Position numbers and translations under genes: made by a program. Shown piece after piece: positions 6,192 to 38,086 of a DNA stretch of 64,000 nt. Source of the stretch: Stenotrophomonas sp. SAU14A_NAIMI4_8. Lineage in GTDB: Bacteria > Pseudomonadota > Gammaproteobacteria > Xanthomonadales > Xanthomonadaceae. The notes under the pieces were generated by a model, which made no database searches, had not been told where the DNA came from, and saw only the letters and a program-made list of their open reading frames with translations. Location of the stretch: positions 1,352,820 through 1,416,819 of the forward strand of contig NZ_CP025999.1 of NCBI RefSeq assembly GCF_003086695.1, read 5' to 3'. The stretch's first letter is position 1. Each line of letters begins with the position of its first letter.

Positions 6192-6293
6192 GTAGAGTCG
6201 AGCTTGCTCGACTGCCTTTCGCGTCGAGGCAAGAGCGTCGAGCAAGCTCGACTCTACCGGGGCTGGGGAGCAGTCGAGCAAGCTCGACTCTAC
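6192..6293. repeat. Cluster of three SMAG palindromes (GTCGAGC type)
   Basis: A forward copy GTAGAGTCGAGCTTGCTCGA starts at 6192, and two reverse-orientation copies (GTCGAGCAAGCTCGACTCTA) end at about 6258 and 6293. The forward and reverse copies can pair as one long hairpin. With the preceding repeats they fill the 405-base gap 6019-6423, in which I see no gene. Confidence 0.85.
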
Positions 6294-34945: not shown

Positions 34946-35122
34946 CATCGCGCGCTGCATGCGCAGGCGGACCTCTCCATTCCATTGGTGCGGTCGTCAG
35001 GCGCGGCCTTTAACGAGACAATAACGAATCGCCGCGACTCGCCGCGCGGGCCCGTTCGTGGACCTGCCCCCTGTCGCCTTTGTTTTCCGCAGTTTCGCCG
35101 CTTCCGGCGCAGGTAGTACGTA

Positions 35123-35791
35123 ATGAAGAATGATCTCCGCCTCCTGCTGTCCCACCTGGGACGCACCTTCCTTTTCGGCTTCATGGTGACCCTGCCGCCC
35201 TTGCTGGCCTGGCTGGACATCCATTGGCTGGGCGACGCGGTAGGCGAGTGGTCGCTGGTGGAACTGACCCAGGAAGGCTTCCTGGCGGCCAGCGTGCTGG
35301 CGTTCGCGCGGTTGGCGTGGCGCCGCGTCGAGGACCGGGGTTTCGCGGTGCTGGCCGCCGCCCTGTTCGCCTGCATGTTCCTGCGCGAGATGGACGAGGC
35401 GCTGGACCTGATCGCGCACGGGTTCTGGAAGTACCCGGTGACCCTGCTGATCGTCGGTTCGCTGGCCTGGGCCAGCCGTGACTGGCGCGGTGCCGTGGCC
35501 GGTCTGGTGCGCTTCCTCACCTCGCGCGCCGGCACGGTCATGACCATTGGCCTGGTGCTGCTGCTGTTCTACTCGCGCCTGATCGGCATGACCTCGTTGT
35601 GGACGGGCCTGCTGGGTGACCAGTACATCCGCGTGTTCAAGAACACCATCGAAGAAACCACCGAGCTGCTGGGCTACACCTTCATCCTGGCCGCCAGCCT
35701 GGGCTACCTGGCGCAGCGCGTACGTGAGCCGCTGGCCACTCGCGCGCGCAGTGAAAGCACCGCGGCGCCGATGCAGCAGCGCCCGCTTTAA
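35123..35791 (+). CDS. Six-helix inner membrane protein, unknown
   Basis: A 222-residue protein with six predicted helices (about residues 12-31, 52-66, 74-88, 105-120, 137-157 and 185-203) and short charged loops, including VEDRG and REMDEALDL. No family recognised; it could be a small transporter-like or signalling membrane protein. It has a TAGTACGTA leader and no strong ribosome site. It ends overlapping the convergent map gene by four bases. Confidence 0.75.
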   Translation: MKNDLRLLLSHLGRTFLFGFMVTLPPLLAWLDIHWLGDAVGEWSLVELTQEGFLAASVLAFARLAWRRVEDRGFAVLAAALFACMFLREMDEALDLIAHGFWKYPVTLLIVGSLAWASRDWRGAVAGLVRFLTSRAGTVMTIGLVLLLFYSRLIGMTSLWTGLLGDQYIRVFKNTIEETTELLGYTFILAASLGYLAQRVREPLATRARSESTAAPMQQRPL

Positions 35792-36576
35792 GGCGCATCC
35801 ACCGGGCACAGCGGGCGTTCGCCCGGGCGCAGTGTCAGCACGCGCACGCCGCTGGCGGTCACCGCCACGGTGTGTTCGAACTGCGCCGACAGTTTGCCGT
35901 CGCGCGTGTACACCGGCCATTCGTCAGGCTGCTGGCGGATGGCCGGCTTGCCCTGGTTGAGCATGGGTTCGATGGTGAACACCATGCCTTCTTCCAGCGC
36001 CATGCCGGTTCCGGCGTGGCCGTAGTGCAGGATCTGCGGCTCTTCGTGCATTTCCTGGCCGATGCCGTGGCCGCAATATTCCTTCACCACGCTGTAGCCG
36101 TGGCTGCGTGCATGGCGGGCGATGGCATGGCCGATATCACCCAGTCGCGCGCCGGGGCGGACTTCGGCGATGCCTTTCCACATGGCCTGGTAGGCCGTGC
36201 TGACCAGCCTGCGCGCAGCGTAGTCGACCTCACCCACTAGGTAGGTGGTGCTGGAATCGGCGATGTAGCCGTTCTTTTCCAGGGTGATGTCCAGGTTGAC
36301 GATCTGCCCATTGCGCAGCACGTCATCGGTACTGGGCACGCCGTGGCAGATCACGTTGTCGATGGATGTGTTGAGCACGAACGGGAAACCGTACTGGCCC
36401 TTGCTGGCCGGCCGCGCGTGCAGCGCATCGACGATCATGCGTTCGACGAAATCGTTGATCTCCATCGTGCTGCGGCCCAGCAGCGGCAACGCGTCGAGTG
36501 CGGCGAACACCTGCGCCAGCAGGCGCCCGGATTCGGCCATCAGCGCGATCTCGTCGGGGCGCTTGATGATGCCCAT
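35788..36576 (-). CDS. map: Type I methionine aminopeptidase
   Basis: A 262-residue metalloprotease of the M24 fold that removes the initiator Met from new proteins. Metal ligands are in NLDITLEKNGYIADSSTTY (Asp pair), CGHGIGQEMHEEP (His), FTIEPML (Glu) and QFEHTVAVT (Glu). CHGVP contains the substrate-binding His. It lacks an N-terminal zinc-finger extension. It follows, with three bases between, a ParD-like ribbon-helix-helix gene and shares its palindromic promoter, an unusual setting: the housekeeping map normally lies beside rpsB. So this is probably a second copy of the genome. Confidence 0.93.
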   Translation of the reverse strand: MGIIKRPDEIALMAESGRLLAQVFAALDALPLLGRSTMEINDFVERMIVDALHARPASKGQYGFPFVLNTSIDNVICHGVPSTDDVLRNGQIVNLDITLEKNGYIADSSTTYLVGEVDYAARRLVSTAYQAMWKGIAEVRPGARLGDIGHAIARHARSHGYSVVKEYCGHGIGQEMHEEPQILHYGHAGTGMALEEGMVFTIEPMLNQGKPAIRQQPDEWPVYTRDGKLSAQFEHTVAVTASGVRVLTLRPGERPLCPVDAP

Positions 36577-36579
36577 GGC

Positions 36580-36792
36580 TCAGGCCTGGCCGGGTGCCAG
36601 CAGCGGCGGCTGCACGCCGGCGGCACGCAGTTCGCTGGCCACGATGTCCTGGAAGCTCAGGGTCGGGTTCAGTTCGCACAGCATGCCGACGCGGATCCAG
36701 AAGTTGGCCTGGGCGTTGATGGAGCGGCTGGACACGGAGCAGGCACGGCGCAGCTGGTCGTGCAGGGTGTCATCGATGTTGACGATGCCCAT
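36580..36792 (-). CDS. ParD-like ribbon-helix-helix protein
   Basis: A 70-residue protein beginning MGIVNIDDTLHDQLRRACSV, with the short beta strand plus two helices of ParD-like (PF11903-type) antitoxins. It would be a DNA-binding dimer that autoregulates. Its partner gene, three bases downstream, is map and not a RelE/ParE toxin. A perfect 32-bp palindrome stands 18 bases upstream of its start and is a likely operator. Confidence 0.8.
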   Translation of the reverse strand: MGIVNIDDTLHDQLRRACSVSSRSINAQANFWIRVGMLCELNPTLSFQDIVASELRAAGVQPPLLAPGQA

Positions 36793-36809
36793 GGCGGATT
36801 CTCGGAAGG

Positions 36810-36841
36810 GAATATATGAATCATATATGATTCATATATTC
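36810..36841 (-). promoter_or_regulatory. Perfect 32-bp AT-rich palindrome, candidate operator
   Basis: Bases 36810-36841 equal their own reverse complement over all 32 positions. The sequence holds two overlapping 13-base boxes, ATATGAATCATAT and ATATGATTCATAT, which is a layout for cooperative ribbon-helix-helix dimers. It is strikingly AT-rich in GC-rich surroundings and lies 18 bases before the ParD-like start, so it probably overlaps the core promoter. Confidence 0.8.
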
Positions 36842-36882
36842 CTGCTCAAGGGCCGCGTCGCTTTGCCGATGACGTGCCAGCC

Positions 36883-36949
36883 GTAGAGTCGAGCTTGCTC
36901 GACTGCACGAAATGCCAGAACCGAAGCAGTCGAGCAAGCTCGACTCTAC
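36883..36949. repeat. Inverted SMAG pair (GTCGAGC type)
   Basis: A forward GTAGAGTCGAGCTTGCTCGA copy at 36883 and a reverse copy ending CTCTAC at 36949, separated by about 24 bases, can form one long hairpin. It lies seven bases from the stop of the metallophosphatase gene. Confidence 0.88.
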
Positions 36950-36955
36950 CGACGG

Positions 36956-38086
36956 TCAGCCATCCACGCCGGGAACGCCTTCGGCCAGCGATACGCGACT
37001 TCCATCCAGCAGGCCACGGCTCAGCGTGCCGTTTTCAATGAACAGCAGTTCGCCGTTCTCGCCGTTCTTGATGCTGCTGTCGATGGCGATCACCCGGCCG
37101 CCGTGGAAGGTGCTCACGTGCGGCATGGAGGTGTGGCCGACCACGATGCGCTTCAGCTGCAGGCGGTCCAGCACGGCCTGCACGCCCTGCGCATCCAGGC
37201 GCCCGTCGAAATAGCCCCGGTACCAGATCGGACTGGTCTTGCCGTCGTACAGCGGAGCAGTGGCCGGGTTGGCCTTTACCTCTGCCTTCGGCGTGCCGAG
37301 CGAAGCCTGGTAGGCGTGGTTGGTGGCGGCCGGGTCCAGCGCCAGTTCCACCGCGTCGGGCGAAATGCCGCCGTGCAGGAACAGGGTGTCGCCGATCTTC
37401 AGCAGTACCGGCCGCGTGCGCAGCCACTGCCCGATCACCGAATCGGCGCCGTACAGCTGCGGGTAGCTGCGGCCGAGCAGTTGTGCGCTGCGCAGGTACT
37501 TGGCGTTGACGTAGCGCAGGTCGTCGTACAGCACCATGGTTTCATGGTTGCCCAGAACGAAGTGCACCGCGCCACCGGCGGCCGCGGCCTGTTGCTGCAG
37601 GCCGTACAGCAGCCAGAACGCCTCGGTCACCTGCGGGCCACGGTCGAACACATCGCCGGCAATGACCAGGGTGTCGGTGCCCAGCGCCCAGCGGTCCTGC
37701 GCATCGATCACCTTGTTGGCACGCAGCAGGCGCACCAGCAGGCCGTACTGGCCATGGATATCGGACAGGGCAACGATGCGCGGTGCGGCCGGCAGTACCG
37801 AAACCGAGGGTGCCGCCGGCGGCGCCACGTGCACGCTGTGGGTGTAGCCGCACTGCGGGCTGAAATCGGTGCCGCTGGCAGTGGCGGGCAGGGTGCGCAT
37901 CTGCACCTGGTCACCACAGATCCACTGCGCGCGCAGCTGCTCCCCCACGCGGAACACATACGGGCCATCGGCATCCACGTGCTCGGCCGGTGTGGCTACC
38001 TCGCGGGCCTGCAGCAGCGGCGTGCCCAGCAGCAGGGCCAGTGGCAGCAGCAGGCGGGCAGGGCGGGACAGGGCACGGTGCAGCAT
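36956..38086 (-). CDS. Exported calcineurin-like metallophosphoesterase
   Basis: A 376-residue protein with a signal peptide (about 1-27, LLLPLALLLGTPLLQA). The dimetal phosphatase motifs are in order: DIHGQ (about 110), GDVFDRGP (about 145), GNHET (about 178), then a late HGG and GHTSMP (about 318). The order and spacing match the PPP/Shewanella-like phosphatase group that has a long N-terminal addition. It acts in the periplasm on an unknown phosphoester. A Cys pair lies near residues 57 and 78. It follows a terminator, so it has its own promoter. Confidence 0.88.
   Translation of the reverse strand: MLHRALSRPARLLLPLALLLGTPLLQAREVATPAEHVDADGPYVFRVGEQLRAQWICGDQVQMRTLPATASGTDFSPQCGYTHSVHVAPPAAPSVSVLPAAPRIVALSDIHGQYGLLVRLLRANKVIDAQDRWALGTDTLVIAGDVFDRGPQVTEAFWLLYGLQQQAAAAGGAVHFVLGNHETMVLYDDLRYVNAKYLRSAQLLGRSYPQLYGADSVIGQWLRTRPVLLKIGDTLFLHGGISPDAVELALDPAATNHAYQASLGTPKAEVKANPATAPLYDGKTSPIWYRGYFDGRLDAQGVQAVLDRLQLKRIVVGHTSMPHVSTFHGGRVIAIDSSIKNGENGELLFIENGTLSRGLLDGSRVSLAEGVPGVDG

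Follow-up and report, generated by a model that had tools for sequence, protein, structure and literature searches.

The window, the whole 64-kb stretch of DNA analysed, contains a small gene of the PF11903 (ParD_like) family followed by a second gene for type I methionine aminopeptidase (MetAP). Judged by sequence comparison, this cassette is real and widely conserved, and it is undescribed as far as the searched literature goes. The predicted binding site of the PF11903 protein is a conserved repeat with an 11-bp lattice, which lies over the predicted -10 hexamer of its own gene; by binding there it probably represses both itself and a MetAP with an altered substrate pocket. Cells thus likely hold an altered spare copy of an essential enzyme silent until there is a need for it. 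The proposal builds on features visible in the DNA: a pair of genes which nearly touch or overlap, a lattice repeat with no second copy in the genome, a canonical map gene elsewhere, intact metal ligands, and the position of map in the place of a toxin.

No description of a ParD-like and methionine aminopeptidase pair was found in the literature searched (subscription papers lay outside its scope). The passages of ParD-like papers available to the search contain nothing on MetAP, and those of PMC3948609 concern a map which is unrelated and has different neighbours.

The gene pair and its operator-like repeat

The PF11903 protein of the window scores 71.5-74 bits against a gathering cut-off of 23, and the map product scores 277.7 bits against the TIGR00500 cut-off of 171.35; the gap between the two genes is 3 bases. 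The original prediction of a ParD-like gene followed after three bases by a complete type I map is borne out by these values. Coordinates are collected in Table 1.

Table 1. Features of the cassette and its upstream region (window coordinates; genome coordinates in brackets)
Feature	Position	Strand	Remarks
PF11903 (ParD_like) gene	36580-36792	-	70 aa; Pfam 71.5-74 bits; starts Met-Gly-Ile; predicted ribbon-helix-helix (RHH) autorepressor
Second type I methionine aminopeptidase gene (map-2)	35788-36576	-	262 aa; all metal ligands kept; altered residues in the substrate pocket
Perfect 34-bp palindrome, operator-like	36809-36842		Half-site array kept in relatives
15-bp box TATATGAATCATATA	36813-36827 (genome 1389632-1389646)		Box search of genome
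15-bp box TATATGATTCATATA	36824-36838 (genome 1389643-1389657)		11 bp offset from TATATGAATCATATA
Predicted -35 hexamer TTGAGC	36844-36849	-	Sigma-70-like site search
Predicted -10 hexamer TATGAT	36820-36825	-	Mid-palindrome; sigma-70-like site search

The monomer model of the PF11903 protein (mean pLDDT 75.8) has the expected helices, at residues 8-21, 25-41 and 47-57, and no strand; residues 2-7 are coil of low confidence. Searches of the PDB with the sequence and the monomer model gave no match to an RHH fold, and no solved structure related by sequence was found. Weak Pfam matches to FitA-like_RHH are present in 6 of 16 PF11903 members, the best with an E value of 0.0097.

The palindrome upstream of the pair is the only perfect palindrome of at least 18 bp in the window. 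It had been described as a perfect 32-bp palindrome holding two overlapping 13-base boxes. It is indeed perfect, but it is two bases longer, and the relatives fit two 15-bp boxes with an 11-bp offset instead of the 13-base boxes. The sigma-70-like site TTGAGC-18-TATGAT (36849-36820, minus strand) overlaps the palindrome and has its -10 inside it; this is the sole such site within 35000-37200, where shuffles average 0.3. Throughout the 4.48-Mb genome, a single contig, the 15-bp box with up to one mismatch is found at the two operator-like positions only (the reversed pattern, as a control, matched once), and the 28-bp core with up to three mismatches is found only at this site. Because box and core are confined to the operator-like site of the PF11903 gene, their uniqueness points to a regulator with one predicted target, itself.

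A different repeat lies directly upstream of the palindrome. This is an inverted repeat with 39-nt arms (36868-36964) and the core GTAGAGTCGAGC, which is present again at 6192, 13651, 47009 and nearby in the window. It has the look of a REP-type element and resembles a Stenotrophomonas repeat which we take to be SMAG.

Two branches of PF11903 and the spread of the cassette

A draw of 397 Pseudomonadota genomes (the phylum draw) yielded 119 PF11903 matches in 110 genomes. The surroundings of all 119 were inspected; map adjoins 57 of them (the linked branch; 52 in phylum-draw loci and five via the loci of relatives), and 62 have no adjoining map. The linked set of the phylum draw was picked by its start-motif pattern, and it is the same set as that given by map adjacency (52 with, 62 without). 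Repressor and map are co-directional in 51 of the 52 phylum-draw linked pairs. In locus L074 (885-2027, repressor on the plus strand) the two genes are divergent, with half-sites in between. Counted by eye, TIGR00500 matches number two or three in each of the 57 phylum-draw genomes that hold a linked pair. About 37 other genomes of the draw (also by eye) have at least two type I MetAPs and zero PF11903 matches; a spare map therefore does not require a PF11903 regulator.

In the loci of the non-linked branch the toxin slot holds an ORF of at least 60 aa in 57 of 62 cases, a few of them plainly spurious. Of ten slot ORFs scanned, chosen from both sizes, seven proved ParE-like and the other three Zeta-like; map thus occupies the place of the toxin of the sister branch, as the toxin-antitoxin-like layout put forward for the window had implied. 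Passages of the TASmania paper (PMC6504116) likewise pair ParD_like with Zeta_toxin. The label of ParD-like antitoxin is misleading for about half of the PF11903 matches here (57/119).

Co-occurrence is strict among the relatives. When the genome of the window is taken with 60 relatives, 31 of the 61 have the repressor, and these alone have a close map (69-100% identity); the two are adjacent in 31/31, and the remaining 30 of 61 genomes carry neither. In named genomes map is adjacent in 80/80 loci, these being the best 80 of at least 593 and partly chosen by a pattern holding MGIV. One of the 80 is L182, which is titled Bacillus subtilis; with 67% GC, and with long stretches of DNA that share 86-90% identity with Stenotrophomonas loci, it is probably mislabelled or contaminated.

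Plasmid records with the repressor number 161, of which 143 have it at less than 60% identity, and map adjoins it in all four of the plasmid records opened. The genes overlap by 4 bases in two of these annotated copies and by 8 bases in one, and are 2 bases apart in the fourth. Phage records gave zero matches to the repressor. Records of Solimonas and Cupriavidus share a 6.2-kb stretch at 98% identity, of which an Extensimonas record also has 4.3 kb. Such near-identical DNA in different genera suggests that the cassette has recently been transferred between them. Cassette and flanks together are 98-99% DNA-identical across genera in two groups of loci, L185/L191/L209 (Solimonas, Cupriavidus, Extensimonas) and L199/L200 (Burkholderia, Halotalea).

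The upstream repeat goes with the gene pair. Half-sites TATAYG and CRTATA recur upstream of map-linked PF11903 pairs, where they combine as TATAYGnnnCRTATA with a period of 11 bp. Two or more half-sites are present in 30/31 relatives, 78/80 named loci (the best 80 of at least 593) and 47/52 phylum-draw linked loci; fewer than two exact half-sites are found in 1/31, 2/80 (of the same best 80 of at least 593) and 5/52, respectively. None of the 62 non-linked loci has two or more, and since the linked and non-linked upstream groups differ in base composition, dinucleotide shuffles are the fairer control: about 6% of these have at least two. Two half-sites were found in none of 21 upstream regions of canonical map genes. 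When identical regions are merged, 142 of 150 distinct upstream regions have at least two half-sites, and in 134 of the 142 all of them lie on one 11-bp lattice. The cassette therefore has a trait of RHH autorepressors, namely regularly spaced boxes at its own predicted promoter. Promoter spacing was counted over the relatives in 51/150 regions against 0.9% of shuffles, a weak comparison, as shuffling destroys the boxes. The element was originally proposed to be an ideal operator, and its operator-like character is upheld: the repeat is kept with the gene pair and is missing at both control sets and elsewhere in the genome of the window.

MetJ, Arc, CopG and FitA are RHH autorepressors with tandem operator boxes. 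The cassette is similar to these in its tandem boxes, set at about one helical turn, and in the weak FitA-like_RHH matches of its family, and its expected mode of action is that of an RHH autorepressor operon. The cassette differs in that the predicted target of linked PF11903 proteins is a MetAP gene, in their short, invariant Met-Gly-Ile start, and in having no solved sequence relative.

The second methionine aminopeptidase

There are four Peptidase_M24 matches in the genome of the window, two of which are MetAP by TIGR00500. The other map is canonical and is 50% identical to the map of the window; the ORFs that come after it, of 902 and 354 aa, are presumably glnD and dapD. The gene of the window is thus an extra map, as was predicted, and the objection that it might be the only one is excluded by the canonical copy. 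Taken as a whole, the original interpretation is supported in part.

Like canonical enzymes, the MetAP of the window is above the TIGR00500 cut-off and has all metal and catalytic residues (H78, D96, D107, H170, H177, E203 and E234). Residues H78, D96, D107 and E203 are present in 161/161 linked maps and H170, H177 and E234 in 160/161; these counts cover 161 of 163 linked loci (L161 and L165 were left out), many of which are close relatives and so not independent. Unlike canonical enzymes, it has S, Q, N and M at the positions of E. coli C59, Y62, C70 and F177, which we take to line the substrate pocket. Q (Y62) and N (C70) are found in 143/161 linked maps versus 0/21 canonical maps, and M (F177) is found in 142/161 linked maps. 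The C59 position varies among the 21 canonical maps (C in 9, N in 3 and P in 9). Going by these alignments, most linked MetAPs examined keep the catalytic residues and have a changed substrate pocket.

When 53 linked maps are placed in a tree with 21 canonical ones, the linked enzymes form one clade of 35, which includes the window, and another of 17 (clade C); the map of L074 is a third lineage on a long branch. The 17 maps of clade C keep Y62, have C70 in 13/17 and have Y at 177, a near-canonical pocket, and the pocket change is therefore not common to all linked enzymes. As there are several linked map clades, at least two MetAP lineages have become partners of a single type of regulator and repeat. 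In the short repressor tree the partners of clade C lie together to one side of a single branch (SH-aLRT 88), in an alignment with few columns and with long-branch warnings.

Bacteria depend on MetAP for viability, and the enzyme is a long-standing candidate drug target. The remodelled pocket of MetAP-2 is possibly insensitive to inhibitors. A widespread, sometimes plasmid-borne and pocket-altered second MetAP with an apparent switch of its own would matter for how cells buffer N-terminal processing; a toxin-antitoxin layout has apparently been re-used to control a housekeeping activity.

The repressor N-terminus and the proposed control of the pair

Start codons were assigned by rule, taking the closest one that coincides with or precedes the match. 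With this rule, residue 2 is Gly in 136/136 distinct linked repressors and residue 3 is Ile in 135/136, and the codons of both vary synonymously; the distance to an RSINAQ-like motif is identical in 136/136. Because the 80 named loci were partly selected for MGIV, the phylum draw and the relatives give fairer figures for Gly2 (52/52 and 23/23 distinct proteins). A further in-frame ATG or GTG lies upstream before a stop in 72/136 linked repressors; the four annotated plasmid copies begin at the same Met as the rule-chosen start. The linked branch has four further invariant residues, H11, R15, N26 and A29. Among non-linked members, position 2 holds at least eight residue types, and the leaders range from 19 to 33 in length (measurable in 54/62).

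PF11903 antitoxins with ParE-like (PF15781) or Zeta toxins share with the cassette the Pfam family, the small first gene and a partner directly downstream. In the cassette, however, the partner is a MetAP, the N-terminus is distinct, the linked branch has invariants of its own (G2, H11, N26 and A29, with I3 in 135/136), and there is a half-site array which is missing from every non-linked locus.

A Met-Gly start is a good substrate of MetAP. By analogy with RHH proteins, residues 2-7 of the repressor are the predicted DNA-contacting strand, and since a MetAP substrate would lie at this ribbon, the N-terminus may act as a sensor. The PF11903 protein would bind the repeat as cooperative RHH dimers, and binding over the predicted -10 would repress the PF11903 gene and map-2 together until the housekeeping MetAP could not keep up. 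As long as Met1 is removed, Gly2 would be the N-terminal residue within the ribbon that binds DNA, and production of the spare MetAP would be off. If the housekeeping enzyme were inhibited, metal-starved or overloaded, new repressor would keep Met1, bind poorly and leave the operator, and the remodelled spare MetAP would be made. This closed loop, in which the repressor is itself a MetAP substrate and senses N-terminal methionine excision, is the trigger that we rank as most likely, and we put it forward tentatively. If it is correct, it would be, to our knowledge, the first known sensor of methionine excision. DNA contact alone could explain the invariance of Gly2 and Ile3.

Release by a small ligand or metal bound at His11 and Arg15, independently of the N-terminal state, is a rather doubtful second reading. 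His11 is invariant in linked repressors (136/136) and mostly Val in non-linked ones, and Arg15, at which most non-linked members have K or R, is invariant in the linked branch as well; moreover MetJ, an RHH repressor of the methionine pathway, uses a small corepressor. Yet no ligand site is known in PF11903, and the invariant Met-Gly-Ile start would be left unexplained.

It is improbable that the pair is a true toxin-antitoxin module with MetAP as the toxin, or as an enzyme which the PF11903 protein keeps inactive by forming a complex with it. In favour of this, the Pfam name of the family is that of an antitoxin, modules of this kind typically have autoregulatory operators, and all ten slot ORFs scanned in sister loci are ParE-like or Zeta toxins. 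However, type II systems have a recognised toxin partner; here the second gene encodes an intact MetAP, of which the cell also has a canonical paralogue, and PADLOC matched neither protein of the window. The cassette is set apart from toxin-antitoxin systems because its partner is no recognised toxin. Two different MetAP lineages are used, and control of gene expression therefore fits better than one fixed binding surface. That the genes are chance neighbours, an antitoxin relic beside an extra map, is suggested by the PF11903 family name alone and was judged already ruled out by the comparative data, given adjacency in 57 phylum-draw genomes and in 80/80 named loci (the best 80 of at least 593) and the shared upstream repeat, which make it vanishingly improbable.

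The neighbours of the pair in 136 loci were compared for conserved genes that might hint at its function, with ORFs in other frames over the pair excluded, and no stress theme was drawn from them. The largest neighbour cluster is found in 11/136 loci and was read by eye as a short-chain dehydrogenase. The next clusters, each in 8/136 loci, include a LysR-like ORF (by eye) and several which are confined to one genus. In L256 (4001-5635), from a plasmid of Pantoea sp. At-9b, an annotated msrA (peptide-methionine sulfoxide reductase) lies directly after the pair; a link to methionine oxidation is possible in this locus.
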